Shown in pieces: positions 17,205-25,135 of a DNA stretch of 64,000 bases. Made by a program: the position numbers and the translations under genes. Within the stretch, counting starts at the first letter, position 1. Every line of letters begins with the position of its first letter. The notes under the pieces were generated by a model. That model was given only the letters and a program-made list of their open reading frames with translations, did no database searches and was not told the origin of the DNA. Source of the DNA: Pseudomonas cannabina (GTDB lineage: Bacteria > Pseudomonadota > Gammaproteobacteria > Pseudomonadales > Pseudomonadaceae). The stretch lies in NCBI RefSeq assembly GCF_900100365.1, contig NZ_FNKU01000001.1, forward strand, positions 5,211,501 through 5,275,500. Direction: 5' to 3'.

Positions 17205-17385
17205 CTGAGCAGATGCAGAGCGTCGCACGATAATTGAGATTATCGTTCCGCACGCTCCAGCGTCGGAATGCATTGCGTGGCGCTCCGCGTCACAAATCTG
17301 CGCCACGCCACGGACCCGAGATCGGACGCAGAGCGTCCAGAACAGCATGCGACGCGGAGCGTCGCACGATAGTTGAAAACCCGCC
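17205..17385. repeat. GGACGCAGAGCGTCC-type REP cluster
   Basis: Several copies of short imperfect palindromes (GCAGAGCGTCGCACGATA, GGACGCAGAGCGTCC, GACGCGGAGCGTC) in alternating orientation fill the first part of the 431-base gap before 17625. Related copies lie at 24997-25052, 36583-36680, 57326-57346 and 58980-59035. The rest of the gap (17386-17624) shows no gene I can support. Confidence 0.75.
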
Positions 17386-17624
17386 TGCAACGCGCCGGAT
17401 GCGTATCCAGACGGCTTCACAATTCTTCACCCCCCCACGCAATCCCTCTGCCACACTGTCTGCCTTATTACTGTGCGACCCTTGCACTGTTCGCTCCGGC
17501 TGGCACACTTTTGGTGCCGCGTCTGATCGGGCGGGCAATGCCGATGTCGTTGGCGCATGACTTTGACCGGATGGCATAAGTCTTGCGCGGCTCAATTACC
17601 GTTCAGGCTCGCAGGAGGCACGCC

Positions 17625-20600
17625 GTGTCGATTCATATTGCCTTGCACCACGTCACGCATTACCGCTACGAACGCGCGGTCGAACTGGGTCCTCAGATCG
17701 TTCGTCTGCGCCCGGCCGCCCATAGCCGCACCCGCGTGCTGTCTTATTCGCTTAAAGTTTTGCCTGAAAACCACTTCATCAACTGGCAGCAGGACCCTCA
17801 GGGTAATTACCTGGCGCGCCTGGTTTTTCCGGAAAAGACCGACGAGTTTCGCGTCGAAGTTGATCTGGTCGCCGAAATGGCGGTGTTCAACCCGTTCGAC
17901 TTCTTTCTGGAACCCTACGCCGAAAACATTCCCTTCACGTACGCCAGCGAAGAGCAGCGTGAGCTTGCCCCGTATCTCGAAAAGCTGCCGCTGACGCCGA
18001 GGTTTCAGGCCTATCTGGACAGCATCAGTCGCGAGCCGATCCCGGCTATCGATTTTCTGGTTGGCCTCAACCAGCGTCTGAGCCAGGACGTGGCTTACCT
18101 GATCCGCATGGAACCGGGCGTTCAGACCCCGGAGTTCACGCTGGAAAACGCCTCGGGCTCCTGCCGCGATTCGGCTTGGCTGCTGGTGCAGCTGCTGCGC
18201 CATCTCGGCATGGCCGCACGTTTCGTGTCGGGTTATCTGATCCAGCTCAAGGCTGATGTCGAAGCGCTGGACGGGCCTTCCGGCACCGACGTCGATTTCA
18301 CCGACCTGCACGCCTGGTGCGAGGTGTATTTGCCGGGCGCGGGCTGGGTCGGGCTGGATGCCACTTCCGGGCTGTTCGCAGGCGAAGGGCACATTCCGCT
18401 GGCGTGCAGCCCCGAACCGTCTTCGGCCGCGCCGATCAGCGGGTTGGTCGAGCCGTGCGAAACCGAATTCAGCCACGAAATGTCGGTCGAGCGCATTTGG
18501 GAGGCGCCCCGCGTCACCAAGCCCTACACCGAAGAACAATGGCAGGACATTCAGGCCCTCGGTCGGCAGATTGACGCCGATTTGCTGCGCGACGATGTGC
18601 GCCTGACCATGGGCGGTGAGCCGACATTCGTGTCCATCGATGATCGCGATGGCGCCGAGTGGAACACCGCTGCGTTGGGCCCTCGCAAGCGCGAACTGTC
18701 CGCCGAGCTGTTCCAGCGCATGCGCGCGCATTACGCGCCGCTGGGCATCGTGCATTTCGGGCAGGGCAAATGGTACCCGGGCGAGCAATTGCCGCGCTGG
18801 TCGCTGAACTGTTTCTGGCGTAAGGATGGCAAGCCGGTCTGGCACAACAACGCGCTGATCGCTGATGAAACGCAGGACTATGGCGCGACCGGCGAACTGG
18901 CCGGGCGCTTCCTCGCCAGTGTTGCCGAACGCTTGAAGCTGCCTGGCCGCTTCGTGTTTCCGGCCTACGAAGACAACTTCTACTACCTGTGGCGCGAAGG
19001 TGCGCTGCCGGTCAACGTGACCGCCGAAGATTCGCGATTGGGTGATGAGCTGGAGCGTGCGCGTCTGCGCAAGGTCTTCGCGCAAGGTCTGGACAAGATG
19101 ATTGGCCAGGTGCTGCCGCTGGCCCGCAGCGCAAAAGGTGATAGCTGGCAGAGTGGGCGCTGGTACCTGCGTGACGAACACTGCCGTCTGGTGCCCGGCG
19201 ATTCGGCACTGGGTTACCGACTGCCGCTGGCCTCGCAGCCGTGGGTCAAGGCGGCGGAGTATCCGTTCATCCATCCGACCGATCACAATCAGGACTTCCC
19301 TGAGCTGGCCGACAGCGACTCGCTGACCGCGCAGCTCAAGGCCAGCGAAAGCGACGCCGAGCGTGCGCCGGAGCTTGATGAGTCCGCCGACTGGCTGACC
19401 CGCACCGCGCTGTGTGCCGAGGCGCGTGACGGGCGTCTGTACCTGTTCATGCCGCCGCTGCAAAAGCTGGAGGAATACCTTGAACTGGTGGCGGTGATCG
19501 AAGCGACCGCCGAAGAGCTGCAATGCCCGATCCTGCTGGAAGGCTACGAGCCGCCGAGCGATCCGCGCCTGTGCAACTTCCGCATTACGCCTGATCCGGG
19601 AGTGATCGAAGTCAACGTGCAGCCCTCTGCAAGCTGGGACGAACTGGTCGAACGCACCGAGTTTCTCTACGAGCAGGCGCGTCTCACGCGGCTGACCACC
19701 GAAAAATTCATGATCGACGGCCGGCACACCGGCACCGGCGGCGGCAACCACTTCGTGCTCGGCGGGGCGACACCGGCGGATTCGCCGTTCCTGCGTCGCC
19801 CGGACCTGCTGCGCAGCCTGCTCAGCTACTGGCACAACCATCCATCGCTGTCGTATCTGTTTTCCGGCTTGTTCATCGGCCCGACCTCGCAAGCACCGCG
19901 TATCGATGAGGCGCGCAACGACTCGCTCTACGAAATGGAAATCGCCTTCGCGCAAATGCCCGAGCCCGGCGAAGAAGTCGCGCCGTGGGTAGTCGACCGT
20001 CTGCTGCGCAACTTGCTGATCGATGTCACCGGCAACACCCATCGTGCCGAATTCTGCATCGACAAACTGTATTCGCCGGACGGCGCAACCGGGCGTCTGG
20101 GCCTGCTGGAGCTGCGCGCCTTCGAGATGCCGCCCCACGCGCGCATGAGTCTTGCCCAGCAATTGCTGCTGCGGGCGCTGGTCGCACGTTTCTGGCGTGA
20201 GCCCTACGCACCGGCCAAACTGGCGCGTTGGGGTACGCAGTTGCACGACCGCTTCATGCTGCCGCACTTCATCGAGCAGGATTTTGCCGACGTGGTGGCC
20301 GACCTCAACTCGGCGGGATATCCGGTCAAGGCTGACTGGTTTGCCGCGCACCTGGAGTTCCGCTTTCCTAAAGTCGGCGATTACGCGGTCAACGGCATCG
20401 AACTGGAGCTGCGTCAGGCACTGGAGCCTTGGCACGTGCTGGGTGAAGAAGGTTCGGCCGGGGGCGCGGTGCGCTACGTCGATTCATCGCTGGAGCGCTT
20501 GCAGGTGCATCTCACTGGCCTGCCACCGCAGCGCTATCTGCTGACCTGCAATGGCATCCCGGTGCCGTTGCAGCCCACTGGCCGGGTTGGCGAGTTTGTC

Positions 20601-20903
20601 GCGGGCGTGCGCTATCGCGCCTGGCAACCGGCCAACTGCCTGCAACCGACCATCGGTGTGCATGCGCCGCTGGTATTTGACCTGCTCGACACCTGGATGC
20701 AGCGCTCGCTGGGCGGCTGCGAGTATCATGTCGCCCATCCGGGTGGCCGCAATTACGAAACGTTACCGGTCAACGCCAACGAAGCGGAAAGCCGCCGTCT
20801 GTCACGTTTCTTCCGAATCGGCCACACACCCGGCAAACTGGACGTTCCATCGCTCAACATTAACGACGAGCTGCCGATGACGCTGGATATGCGTCTGCAT
20901 TAA
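17625..20903 (+). CDS. Transglutaminase-DUF2126 amidoligase-like fusion protein
   Basis: This is a 1092-aa two-part protein. The N-terminal third is a bacterial transglutaminase-like region with a complete triad: Cys180 (GSCRDSAW), His229 (DLHAWCEVY) and Asp245 (GLDATSG). The remaining approximately 770 residues are DUF2126, which includes [11 protein letters not shown] and [15 protein letters not shown]. From memory this domain has been placed in the glutamine-synthetase-like COOH-NH2 ligase superfamily, which makes amide bonds. GTG 17625 follows a perfect AGGAGG six bases upstream. It leads a three-gene cassette with the permuted ATP-grasp and second transglutaminase genes. The substrate is unknown. 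Confidence 0.85.
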
Positions 20904-20992
20904 AAGAACAGTGGCTATGTGCGTCAGATGCACACGGATGTGACATCTGACTGCACCACTCTGAAGTCCTTACGTTGCCTGCCGAGCCTTCC

Positions 20993-23488
20993 ATGCCTGA
21001 CCTGCTTGACCGCTACCCGCTTTCCGAGGGTACCTACCACGAAATGCTCGACGCAGACGGAGCCGTTCGCCCGCACTGGCGTCGCCTGTACGAACACATG
21101 CAGCGCAGCACATCGGCGCAATTGATCCAGCGCCAGGCTCTGTTGACCCGCCAGCTTCAGGAAAACGGTGTCACCTACAACGTTTATGCCGACCCCAAAG
21201 GCGCAGATCGGCCGTGGGAGCTGGACCTGTTGCCGCACATTATTGCGGCGGATGAATGGCAACACGTCGCGGCAGGGATTGCCCAGCGTGCCCGACTGCT
21301 CAACGCCGTGCTCGCCGACCTGTATGGCCCGCAGACCCTGATCGCCAATGGCTTGTTGCCGGCTGAGCTGGTATTTGGCCATAACAACTTTCTGTGGCCG
21401 TGTCAGGGCATCAAACCGCCGGAAAATACCTTTCTGCACATGTACGCCGTGGACCTGGCGCGTACGCCCGATGGTCGCTGGTGGGTAACCGCCGACCGGA
21501 CCCAGGCACCCTCGGGTGCTGGTTACGCGCTGGAGAATCGGCAAAGCGTCGCTCGCGCCTTGCCGGAAACCTTTCGCGATTTGCAGGTCAGGCATCTGTC
21601 GGGGTTTTTCGACACGCTGCAACAGACCCTGTCCCGTCAGGCGCCGACCAGCAGCGAAGCGCCGCTGGTGGTGCTGCTGACACCCGGGCGTTTCAACGAA
21701 AGTTATTTCGAGCACCTTTATCTGGCGCGGCAGTTGGGTTACCCGCTGGTTGAAGGCGGTGACCTGACAGTACGCGATGCGACCGTCTACCTGAAAACCC
21801 TCAGCGGTCTGCGTCGGGTTCACGCCATCATGCGGCGTCTGGACGATGACTTCTGCGATCCGCTGGAATTGCGTACCGACTCCGCGCTTGGCGTGCCAGG
21901 GCTGCTTGAAGCCGTGCGCCAGGGCAACGTGCTGGTTGCCAATGCACTGGGCAGCGGTGTGCTGGAATCGCCCGGCCTGTTGGGCTTTTTACCGAAAATC
22001 AGTCAATACCTGTTTGGCGAAGACCTGATTCTGCCGTCGGTGGCGACCTGGTGGTGTGGAGAACCGACCGTGCTGGCGCAAGCGCTGGAGAAACTGCCTG
22101 ATCTGCTGATCAAGCCGGCGTTTCCCTCGCAGCATTTCGCCCCGGTGTTCGGTCGCGACCTTAGCGAAGAACAACGCAATGCACTCGCTCAGCGCATGCA
22201 GTCGCGGCCTTACGCCTACGTTGCGCAAGAACTGGCGCAGTTGTCCCACGCGCCGGTGCTACAGGCAGACGGCACCAGCCTGCAACCCCGCGCGATTGGC
22301 ATGCGTGTCTACGCCGTGGCCAGTCGCGATGGCTATCGCGTGCTGCCGGGCGGCCTGACCCGAGTTGCTGCCGAAGCCGACGCCGACGTGGTCTCGATGC
22401 AGCGCGGTGGCGCGAGCAAGGATACGTGGGTGCTGGGCGAACGCTCGCACCTGGGCGAACCGTGGAAAGGCCAGCGCGCCTTGGGCGTGTATGACCTGAT
22501 CCGCCGTGATCCTTATTTGCCCTCGCGAGTGGTGGAAAACCTGTTCTGGTTTGGCCGTTATTGTGAACGTTGCGAGGACAGCGCCCGTCTGTTGCGCATC
22601 ATGTTGACGCGCTATGTCGATGACGATGATCCGCTCGCGCTGGAGGCCGCCGTCGCGCTGGCTGAAAGCTTGGGTATGTTGCCGGACGCGGAGGAGGGTG
22701 AAGAGCTGCGAGACCGTCTGCTGACGGCCCTGCTGGGCGATGAGTGGCCATTCAGCCTGCGCGCCAACCTGCAGCGCCTGCAATGGGCTGCCTCGCAAGT
22801 GCGCGGCAAGCTTTCAAGGGAAAACTGGCAGGCGCTGGTCGAATTGCAGCGTGAAGCCCTGAGTCTGGAAATCGAAGCGCCGGACTTTGGCGAACTGGTG
22901 GATTTTCTCAATCGTCTGGTGATGTCGCTGGCGGCGCTTTCCGGGTTTGCCATGGACGACATGACCCGCGACGAAGGCTGGAATTTCCTGATGATCGGGC
23001 GGCGTATCGAGCGCTTGAAGTTTCTCAGTTCCAGTCTGGCAGCGTTTCTGCGCGGCTCGGCCGTCTCCGAGAAGGCAGGGCTGGAGTGGTTGCTGGAGCT
23101 GGGCAACAGCAGCATCACCTATCGCTCACGCTACATGGCCGTACCGCACCTGATTCCGGTGCTGGACCTGTTGCTGCTCGATGAGCAGAACCCGCACGCG
23201 GTGCTGTTTCAGCTCAAGCTGGTGCAACGTTCGCTGCGCCGGCTGAACGATGAGTTCGATGCACCCCGCGACAACAGCCTTGTGGTACTGGCACAGCGTC
23301 TCGCCGGTTTCGATCTGGGCAGCCTGGAAAACCCGCTGTTCGGGCAGAGCAGCATCGACGCCGTGCTCGACGGTCTGGCCGATCTGCTGCAGAGCATTGC
23401 GGATTGCAGCGGGCAAGCGTCCGATCGTCTGGCGCTGCGCCATTTTGCTCACGTCGATGACGTCAGCCAACGCACGGTATCTGTCTGA
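20993..23488 (+). CDS. Circularly permuted ATP-grasp / alpha-E fusion protein
   Basis: The 831-aa protein combines a circularly permuted type 2 ATP-grasp domain (about 1-480; old DUF404/DUF407) with an alpha-helical alpha-E domain (old DUF403, about 505-820, starting RVVENLFWFGRYCERCEDSARLLR). ATP-grasp enzymes ligate a carboxylate to an amine through an acyl-phosphate. I chose ATG 20993 (MPDLLDRYPLSEGTYHEM). An in-frame TTG at 20975 is possible, and neither has a strong Shine-Dalgarno. The stop overlaps the next ATG (TGATG). In many genomes the two domains are separate genes, so this is a fused version. Confidence 0.87.
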   Translation: MPDLLDRYPLSEGTYHEMLDADGAVRPHWRRLYEHMQRSTSAQLIQRQALLTRQLQENGVTYNVYADPKGADRPWELDLLPHIIAADEWQHVAAGIAQRARLLNAVLADLYGPQTLIANGLLPAELVFGHNNFLWPCQGIKPPENTFLHMYAVDLARTPDGRWWVTADRTQAPSGAGYALENRQSVARALPETFRDLQVRHLSGFFDTLQQTLSRQAPTSSEAPLVVLLTPGRFNESYFEHLYLARQLGYPLVEGGDLTVRDATVYLKTLSGLRRVHAIMRRLDDDFCDPLELRTDSALGVPGLLEAVRQGNVLVANALGSGVLESPGLLGFLPKISQYLFGEDLILPSVATWWCGEPTVLAQALEKLPDLLIKPAFPSQHFAPVFGRDLSEEQRNALAQRMQSRPYAYVAQELAQLSHAPVLQADGTSLQPRAIGMRVYAVASRDGYRVLPGGLTRVAAEADADVVSMQRGGASKDTWVLGERSHLGEPWKGQRALGVYDLIRRDPYLPSRVVENLFWFGRYCERCEDSARLLRIMLTRYVDDDDPLALEAAVALAESLGMLPDAEEGEELRDRLLTALLGDEWPFSLRANLQRLQWAASQVRGKLSRENWQALVELQREALSLEIEAPDFGELVDFLNRLVMSLAALSGFAMDDMTRDEGWNFLMIGRRIERLKFLSSSLAAFLRGSAVSEKAGLEWLLELGNSSITYRSRYMAVPHLIPVLDLLLLDEQNPHAVLFQLKLVQRSLRRLNDEFDAPRDNSLVVLAQRLAGFDLGSLENPLFGQSSIDAVLDGLADLLQSIADCSGQASDRLALRHFAHVDDVSQRTVSV

Positions 23489-24381
23489 TGAGTGCTTTTT
23501 ACCAGATTTTCCACGACACCCATTACAAGTACGACACCCCGGTGTCCCTGGCTCAGCAGCTGGCGCATCTGTGGCCGCGCAGCAGTCCGTGGCAGCGCTG
23601 CACTGAACAGGAACTGGAGATTTTCCCGACGCCTACTACGCGTCGCGATGAACTGGACGTGTTCGGCAACCCGCTGACCCGTCTGGCGTTCGAGCGTCCG
23701 CATGATGAGTTGCAGGTCAACGCCCGGCTGCGCGTCGAGGTGCTGGAACGGCCGTTTCTGGACTTCAATCTGTCGCCGGAATGGGAAGTGACCCGCAGTG
23801 CGTTGACCTACAGCGCCAAGCCGATGACCGAAGACATTCTGGACGCCTGCCGCTATCGCTTCGAATCGCCCTACGTGCACCTGAAGCGTTCGTTCGTCGA
23901 GTTTTCGCAAGCGTGTTTCCCCGCCGGTCGACCTTTGCTGCTCGGTGTGCAGGCCTTGATGGAGAAGATCTTCAGCGAATTCACGTTCGATGAAGAGGCG
24001 ACGCAGGTCGCCACGCCGCTGGTGGAAGTGCTGGAACGCAAGCGCGGTGTCTGTCAAGACTTCGCCCACCTGATGCTGGCCTGCCTGCGCTCGCGCGGGC
24101 TGGCGGCGCGCTACGTGAGTGGCTATCTGCTGACCCAGCCCCCGCCGGGTCAACCACGGTTGATCGGTGCAGATGCGTCGCACGCCTGGGTGTCGGTGTT
24201 CTGTCCGGCCTCCGGCTGGGTCGATTTCGACCCGACCAACAATGTACAGCCTGCGCTGGAACACATCAGCCTGGCCTGGGGTCGCGACTTCTCTGATGTG
24301 TCGCCGTTGAGGGGCGTGATTCTGGGCGGCGGCACGCATGATCCCGAGGTTAGGGTAACGGTAATGCCTGTCAGCGCCTAA
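23488..24381 (+). CDS. Transglutaminase-like protease/transferase family protein
   Basis: This is a 297-aa protein with a Bact_transglu_N-type N-terminal domain (FYQIFHDTHYKYDTPVSLAQQ) and a transglutaminase-like core with catalytic residues Cys189 (RGVCQDFAHL), His232 (DASHAWVSV) and Asp248 (DFDPTNN). No signal peptide is visible, so it should be cytoplasmic. It is translationally coupled to the ATP-grasp gene. Members could act as peptidases or amide-forming transferases on the cassette's product. Confidence 0.86.
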   Translation: MSAFYQIFHDTHYKYDTPVSLAQQLAHLWPRSSPWQRCTEQELEIFPTPTTRRDELDVFGNPLTRLAFERPHDELQVNARLRVEVLERPFLDFNLSPEWEVTRSALTYSAKPMTEDILDACRYRFESPYVHLKRSFVEFSQACFPAGRPLLLGVQALMEKIFSEFTFDEEATQVATPLVEVLERKRGVCQDFAHLMLACLRSRGLAARYVSGYLLTQPPPGQPRLIGADASHAWVSVFCPASGWVDFDPTNNVQPALEHISLAWGRDFSDVSPLRGVILGGGTHDPEVRVTVMPVSA

Positions 24382-24996: not shown

Positions 24997-25060
24997 TAGG
25001 ACGCAGAGCGTCCGGAACGGCATGCCGACGCGGAGCGTCGCACGATAGTTGAAGTGTCCG
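24997..25060. repeat. GGACGCAGAGCGTCC-type REP pair
   Basis: A GGACGCAGAGCGTCC palindrome, the spacer GGAACGGCATGC, then GACGCGGAGCGTCGCACGATA make one complete copy of the same element as at 17319-17375. It sits between the convergent azurin and nadE genes. Confidence 0.75.
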
Positions 25061-25135
25061 CCTGGACACCCGGACCGGGCGACGCTCCCACAGCCCCCCG
25101 CGCTCTACCTGAGGTCGAGCGCAGTCTCGTGTTAC

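Follow-up and report, generated by a model that had tools for sequence, protein, structure and literature searches.

Within the 64,000-nucleotide stretch of the Pseudomonas cannabina genome analyzed here in full (the window; NCBI RefSeq assembly GCF_900100365.1, contig NZ_FNKU01000001.1, positions 5,211,501 to 5,275,500), three adjacent plus-strand genes form a cassette for which a first-pass annotation had proposed a self-contained amide-forming pathway. Specifically, gene 1 (17625..20903) encodes a transglutaminase-like domain fused to DUF2126, gene 2 (20993..23488) a degenerate circularly permuted (CP) ATP-grasp domain fused to a divergent Alpha-E domain, and gene 3 (23488..24381) a second transglutaminase-like protein. 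We lean, if only somewhat, toward the reading that this is one of two cassettes, the accessory one, in a system that forms and breaks amides and is switched on by NtrC and sigma-54 under nitrogen shortage. A second cassette, composed of genes for a stand-alone CP-ATP-grasp, an Alpha-E protein, and a transglutaminase, is located approximately 2.6 Mb away in the same genome (L007:7198-10406, minus strand, 10406 being a chosen start). In our assessment the window cassette would be a variant, tied to nitrogen limitation, of the predicted amidoligase/Anbu-type system, and not a self-contained pathway of three enzymes.

The regulatory part of this reading begins with a sigma-54 -24/-12 element, TGGCATAAGTCTTGCG (17572..17587, plus strand), which matches 9 of 12 consensus positions, carries GG-N10-GC exactly, and is separated from the gene 1 start codon by 37 bases. 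Approximately 107-123 nt before the gene 1 start lies a palindromic NtrC-like site on the same strand, GGCACACTTTTGGTGCC (17502..17518), matching 10 of the 14 positions of what we take to be the NtrC consensus. The promoter is claimed because of conservation across loci and enrichment counts, and not because of a scan of the window alone, in which seven sigma-54 matches against 1.42 expected constitute weak evidence. The locus sample comprised the best 80 of at least 593 loci; counts set against control regions cover the 76 in which a start was found (all but L089, L090, L110, and L129), and controls were mechanical, uncurated open frames of at least 200 codons. Within the genus, the sigma-54 element is present in 26 of 27 loci, and in these 26 its mean conservation is 0.99, where two flanking blocks reach 0.47 and 0.50; a TGGTGC half-site is found at -170..-60 in 21 of the 27. 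Outside the genus, 17/57 loci carry a sigma-54 site of at least 11/12 ahead of gene 1, versus 0/519 control upstream regions. When one locus was taken per named genus, with unnamed metagenome-assembled genomes as separate entries, sites of at least 10/12 were observed in 22 of 45 loci from other genera (dinucleotide shuffles: mean 0.78, maximum 5), among them loci titled Verrucomicrobia and Akkermansiaceae. NtrC-like sites of at least 11/14 were detected in 12/76 loci versus 18/692 controls, an enrichment less clear than that of the sigma-54 sites. The second cassette of the same genome likewise has a sigma-54 site of 11/12 together with an NtrC-like site of 12/14. The earlier statement that no regulator is adjacent to the cassette holds for the identified neighboring genes but misses the sites at 17572-17587 and 17502-17518. 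One of the seven sigma-54-like matches in the window lies on the minus strand in the same intergenic spacer (17439-17453), faces a ygiQ-type gene, and is probably due to chance.

Published data on related clusters also point to nitrogen. In Burkholderia cenocepacia, BCAM1233-1236, annotated as DUF404/DUF407, DUF403, transglutaminase-like, and large transglutaminase-like proteins, belong to the sigma-54/NtrC targets identified when nitrogen is limiting, and their expression in an ntrC mutant changes by log2 values of -8.2, -9.4, -9.4, and -6.0, respectively (PMC5491218). From its description, the large transglutaminase-like protein appears to be a DUF2126 fusion. In Pseudomonas putida, PP2685-2687 are raised under nitrogen limitation (PMC3325844), PP_2686-2688 increase 11- to 15-fold in wild-type cells of another study (PMC7801951), and in a comparison of nitrate with ammonium, which is not starvation, nitrate gives the higher levels of PP_2685 and PP_2688 (log2 4.44 and 3.99; PMC8050072). 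Additionally, a sigma-54 site is listed before a CP_ATPgrasp_1 gene in Bradyrhizobium (PMC13207237), and the same domains are associated with urea metabolism in marine metagenomes (PMC3597751). In a Caulobacter NtrC study, mention is made only of hvyA, whose product is a transglutaminase homolog and which rises threefold in the absence of ntrC.

Several observations weigh against control by NtrC and sigma-54. One genus locus, L034, lacks the sigma-54 element, 23 of the 45 one-per-genus loci have no site of at least 10/12, and among 32 non-genus loci from the order and class samples seven have such a site and none reaches 11; given this weak signal, sigma-54 control is therefore not universal. 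Of the two loci examined in which a stand-alone ATP-grasp adjoins gene 1, L154 has no site of at least 8 positions in its short upstream region and L155 has one of 9/12. NtrC-like sites of at least 11/14 precede gene 1 in only 10/57 non-genus loci. With regard to expression, PP_2685 barely rose (1.12) in the same study that recorded the increase of its neighbors (PMC7801951), and one paper describes Anbu-operon expression as unchanged under various other conditions. Lastly, NtrC is proposed as the activator from a 10/14 match, and another sigma-54 activator may act here. Were that so, the promoter would be real and the cassette would belong to a different stress response. The far greater consistency of the sigma-54 sites as compared to the NtrC-like sites, and the imperfect site in the window, are what such a scenario would predict; we nonetheless judge it quite unlikely in view of the strong NtrC dependence of the B. 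cenocepacia cluster, the 12/14 site of the second cassette, and the half-site retained throughout most of the genus.

The enzymatic part of the reading turns upon gene 2. Its ATP-grasp domain was compared with others in an alignment of 75 gene-2-type and 29 stand-alone sequences, one per locus, taken from the 80 loci plus the genome itself and including many related species; sequences were assigned to one or the other type from their phmmer scores against the proteins of the window, ahead of the motif tally. In the stand-alone proteins, the E-D-N motif, the GGYG loop, the D of DLRPF, and the N of NSSQ are kept in 29/29. In the gene-2 type, E is present at its position in 0/75 (A 39, S 24, G 7, N 3, R 2), N in 0/75 (R 72, H 2, Q 1), and the GGYG loop in 0/75 versus 29/29, the latter including the protein of the second cassette. 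The E..N pair presumably binds Mg-ATP in CP-ATP-grasp proteins, an assumption that we carry over from glutathionylspermidine synthetase. Gene 2 aligns to the solved CP-ATP-grasp structure 3n6x ("Putative glutathionylspermidine synthase") over residues 15-481 with 305 bits, establishing family likeness; in contrast, 3n6x and the stand-alone paralog of the same genome keep EDN, GSGGYGM, DLRPF, and NSSQGGGT, none of which is intact in gene 2. The gene 2 ATP-grasp is accordingly predicted to be a catalytically dead pseudo-enzyme. It had been read in the first-pass annotation as an amide-forming enzyme, with loss of its ATP-binding residues named as a ground for giving that reading up, and it is this loss that the 75 sequences display.

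Loss of conserved residues in gene 2 extends to the Alpha-E domain. All 75 gene-2-type sequences fall into one clade (support 0.74, with 1.0 for the stand-alone side, under midpoint rooting). Within Alpha-E, the ER motifs are retained (E525/R526 in 73/73 and E673/R674 in 72/73 sequences). In stand-alone Alpha-E proteins nine polar residues, N82, R94, E95, N96, R98, E110, N113, D173, and R177 (numbered as in the paralog of the same genome, the three commonest residues per column being tallied), are conserved in 28-30/30; the same nine positions are replaced in most of the 73 gene-2 sequences, and the paralog itself deviates at 95, 96, and 98. Decay into a pseudogene is countered by ratios of nonsynonymous to synonymous substitution (dN/dS) of 0.06-0.11 for gene 2 in five comparisons, comparable to its neighbors and rough in that dS is near 1; gene 2 is under purifying selection.

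Might gene 2 instead remain an ATP-dependent ligase, acting through the rearranged residues D154, W163, R169, Q171, Q470, and R471? The strong family match, the appearance of new conserved residues (D154 is kept in 75/75 sequences, and K374 in 55/75), and purifying selection are compatible with such an enzyme. The replacement of E by A, S, G, N, or R and of N by R, H, or Q, and the disappearance of the glycine loop, each in 75/75, are not, and an arginine in place of what we presume to be a metal ligand speaks against the usual Mg-ATP chemistry. We regard a rearranged ligase as unlikely. A further possibility, to which we give slightly less than even odds, is that gene 2 is an ancient fused copy of an ATP-grasp/Alpha-E pair, catalytically dead and retained under strong selection as a subunit that regulates an amide-synthesis machine of nitrogen-starved cells or docks its substrate, with the gene 1 fusion acting as the effector that would link this machine to nitrogen recycling.

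If gene 2 is dead, the question arises as to which protein supplies the activity, and co-occurrence across genomes points to the stand-alone ATP-grasp. In this survey, stand-alone proteins were defined as those with at least 45% identity to the paralog of the same genome and gene-2-type proteins as those with less, that is, by identity and not by motifs; seven short extra ATP-grasp fragments and secondary DUF2126 matches, all in genomes already counted, were left out. Among 57 relatives, DUF2126 is found in 32, and the stand-alone type in 32/32 of those and 8/25 of the others. Similarly, among 185 genomes of the class, DUF2126 is found in 35, and the stand-alone type in 35/35 of those and 20/150 of the others. 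Every genome with the gene-2 type also carries the stand-alone type (37/37 relatives and 15/15 class genomes). Within the class sample, the stand-alone type lies at most 4 kb from DUF2126 in 25 of 35 genomes, 19 of them without the gene-2 type beside it, and neither type adjoins DUF2126 in 6/35; in the locus sample, a stand-alone ATP-grasp is present in the same stretch in 28/80 loci, mostly of Burkholderiales, Marinobacter, and Verrucomicrobia. On these counts, in which DUF2126 was found only together with the stand-alone ATP-grasp, the core of the system is likely the intact ATP-grasp/Alpha-E pair, DUF2126 an add-on that needs this core, and gene 2 a derived partner. It counts against this argument that the co-occurrence counts, like the Fisher tests, ignore shared ancestry.

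Gene 1 contains the only DUF2126 copy of the genome. As the first-pass annotation had noted, both transglutaminase triads are complete: C180/H229/D245 in gene 1, identical in 56/56 aligned sequences (the window's own counted), and C189/H232/D248 in gene 3. Its placement of DUF2126 in the glutamine synthetase (GS)-like superfamily is likewise consistent with structure prediction, in which gene 1 residues ~297-1000 are predicted to adopt the GS fold. Residues E332, E662, N664, H709, E829, and R831 are collinear with GS motifs and identical in 56/56 sequences; the assignment follows motif order against two GS-family proteins of the same genome, and we treat E332, E662/N664, H709, and E829/R831 as candidates for the GS metal and ATP residues. 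The structural model is, however, of moderate quality (predicted local distance difference test score 72.7, predicted template modeling score 0.69), and an invariant T334 (56/56) occupies the position at which the first GS motif, E-x-E, has its second acidic residue, a substitution that may indicate altered chemistry. GS and GmaS (7cql, 9qur, and many GS entries) resemble gene 1 in predicted fold and collinear motifs, and differ from it in T334, in low identity (8-16% in the GS rows), and in the fusion of gene 1 to a transglutaminase-like domain. Profile comparison of DUF2126 with GS and GCS2 was uninformative, the positive control of GS against GCS2 having failed as well, and Foldseek rows for diphtheria toxin (probability 0.03-0.08) were dismissed as meaningless.

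In 67/80 loci the three genes stand in the order gene 1 - gene 2 - gene 3; of the other 13, 12 have fewer than three cassette genes, several of them at contig ends, and one, L120, has a different order. Because of this conserved order, and of dN/dS values of 0.05-0.12 for the cassette in five comparisons, the cassette is no chance pattern. Co-conservation of the three genes, which the earlier reading had implied, receives support from the loci and less from the genomes: 22 of the 35 DUF2126-containing class genomes have no detected gene-2 type, although a protein search may miss distant ones, and the gene-2 type occurs without DUF2126 in 5/57 relatives and 2/185 class genomes. All five of these relatives proved on inspection to have both gene 2 and gene 3. 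Variants of gene 1 were also observed: L147 (G219:C104) contains three consecutive DUF2126 genes, one of which is a 709-aa form without the transglutaminase domain, and at L146:5431-8548 and L148:4038-7151 a DUF2126 protein of ~710 aa without a fused transglutaminase is encoded divergently from an adjoining stand-alone transglutaminase-like gene, a pair that may be a split form of gene 1.

Taken together, these data are consistent with a scheme in which a nitrogen-starved cell would make both cassettes. The paralogous ATP-grasp, with Alpha-E, would form one amide bond, an acyl phosphate being the intermediate; gene 1, through its GS-like domain, would make or remodel a second carboxyl-amine bond; and the papain-fold transglutaminase-like domains would hydrolyze or transfer those amides. 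Gene 2, as a non-catalytic copy, would pair with the active ATP-grasp/Alpha-E or with gene 1 and set specificity or activity. The likely purpose would be to recover or store nitrogen from amides, or to mark proteins with a peptide, and the candidate substrates are a small peptide, an amine conjugate, or proteins, among which the evidence favors none.

Two other accounts of the cassette share its parts. As proposed for the Anbu operon (PMC6376114 and PMC5666114), the ligases could tag proteins with a small peptide or an amino acid, which the transglutaminase-like enzymes would remove or recycle under nitrogen starvation. Nitrogen-limitation control would suit such recycling of proteins, and the transglutaminase-ligase fusion family to which gene 1 is similar shares a ligase superfamily with the Pup ligase (PMC2588565). 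Evidence to the contrary comes from that same study, which finds no Pup-like small gene in the neighborhoods of the fusion family (PMC2588565), and from the Yersinia bercovieri Anbu operon, in which the ATP-grasp releases phosphate from ATP and Anbu is without peptidase activity (PMC6376114). Moreover, an adjacent Anbu protease was ruled out at the cassette, and the sole PF00227 match in the genome is HslV beside HslU, although Anbu scores low with this profile and a copy may be missed. Protein tagging is, on this evidence, rather unlikely. The self-contained pathway, in which transglutaminases, GS-like ligase, and permuted ATP-grasp would all act catalytically on one small product, can call upon the adjacent order in 67/80 loci, the intact triads of genes 1 and 3, and most of the GS motif residues of gene 1. 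It is rendered very improbable by the loss of the ATP-grasp motif residues, by the finding that neither DUF2126 nor the gene-2 type was detected in a genome lacking the stand-alone ligase type, and by units of gene 2 + gene 3 that have no gene 1.

The two-cassette reading places the locus among systems already described. The transglutaminase-ligase fusion family named in 2008, exemplified by Mycobacterium tuberculosis Rv2566 and predicted to function in peptide formation, has the same architecture as gene 1, a transglutaminase-like N-terminus followed by a carboxylate-amine ligase; its description, so far as the accessible text extends, makes no mention of sigma-54/NtrC control or of a degenerate ATP-grasp partner, whereas here a fused pseudo-ATP-grasp/Alpha-E follows gene 1 (PMC2588565). 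The Anbu operon (ATP-grasp, Alpha-E, transglutaminase, Anbu; PP_2685-2688 and Y. bercovieri) shares with the loci described here the ATP-grasp, Alpha-E, and transglutaminase families, as well as a nitrogen response in P. putida, and the second cassette has the same order of the first three genes; it differs in that no Anbu was found here and in that the window cassette has DUF2126 and a fused degenerate ATP-grasp/Alpha-E. RimK/RimB and RloABC are likewise Pseudomonas loci, and Rlo pairs an ATP-grasp with a transglutaminase-type protein; compared by description only, RloABC has a membrane-bound inactive transglutaminase and an aspartic protease (retropepsin) in contrast to DUF2126 and Alpha-E here (PMC12239564). 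In the open-licence literature, no report was found of a degenerate ATP-grasp in such a cassette or of a mapped Pseudomonas sigma-54 promoter for it, and, in agreement with the first-pass annotation, the literature searched yielded no characterized product or substrate of such cassettes.

The layout of the cassette is otherwise as first annotated, three adjacent genes with five domains being borne out by coordinates and Pfam matches. Gene 1 starts with GTG at 17625, preceded on the plus strand by a Shine-Dalgarno sequence, AGGAGG (17613..17618), and matches Bact_transglu_N, Transglut_core, and DUF2126 (1353 bits, profile positions 1-826 of 826). Gene 2 starts with ATG at 20993 (alternatively TTG at 20975), matches CP_ATPgrasp_2 (525 bits) and Alpha-E (PF04168, 224.5 bits), and overlaps gene 3 in a TGATG that combines its stop with the gene 3 start. 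None of the three proteins matched NCBIfam at E 0.001. Named near relatives, with 95% identity for gene 2 in P. syringae pv. aceris and 92% for gene 1 in P. capsici, suggest the Pseudomonas syringae group. The flanks, dnaB and ygiQ-type genes upstream and azurin, nadE, and pncB downstream, are ordinary-looking. A repeat with the core GGAGCGTCGCACGAT (four matches with at most two mismatches, versus 0.25 expected) is present at 17217-17370, in the spacer before gene 1, and at 25032-25088, downstream of azurin, and looks like a repetitive extragenic palindromic (REP)-type intergenic repeat. Approximately 1 kb past the second cassette, on the same strand, is a class-I glutamine amidotransferase-like gene (L007:5414-6178).

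Clustering of open frames of at least 100 codons, a length exceeding that of short precursor peptides, from 61 non-Pseudomonas loci revealed no convincing conserved extra neighbor family. Only three clusters reached six loci; two have representatives that lie across cassette genes but on the other strand, and the third (eight loci) has a Competence-domain protein as its representative. Among ten frames from gaps and flanks, six match unrelated Pfam families (histidine kinase, OprB porin, solute-binding protein, alpha/beta hydrolase, competence protein, and HerA-like) and four have no Pfam match.

The amidoligase, transglutaminase, and Anbu families have been predicted since 2008-2009. The conserved nitrogen-starvation-type promoter indicates when cells likely make the cassette proteins, and the loss of motifs together with the constant stand-alone partner indicates which protein is likely the enzyme and which its partner. 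In combination, these findings turn an open annotation problem into a defined condition, a co-factor cassette, and a pair of proteins, and what is new over the earlier reading is a testable physiological setting for a known kind of uncharacterized cassette.

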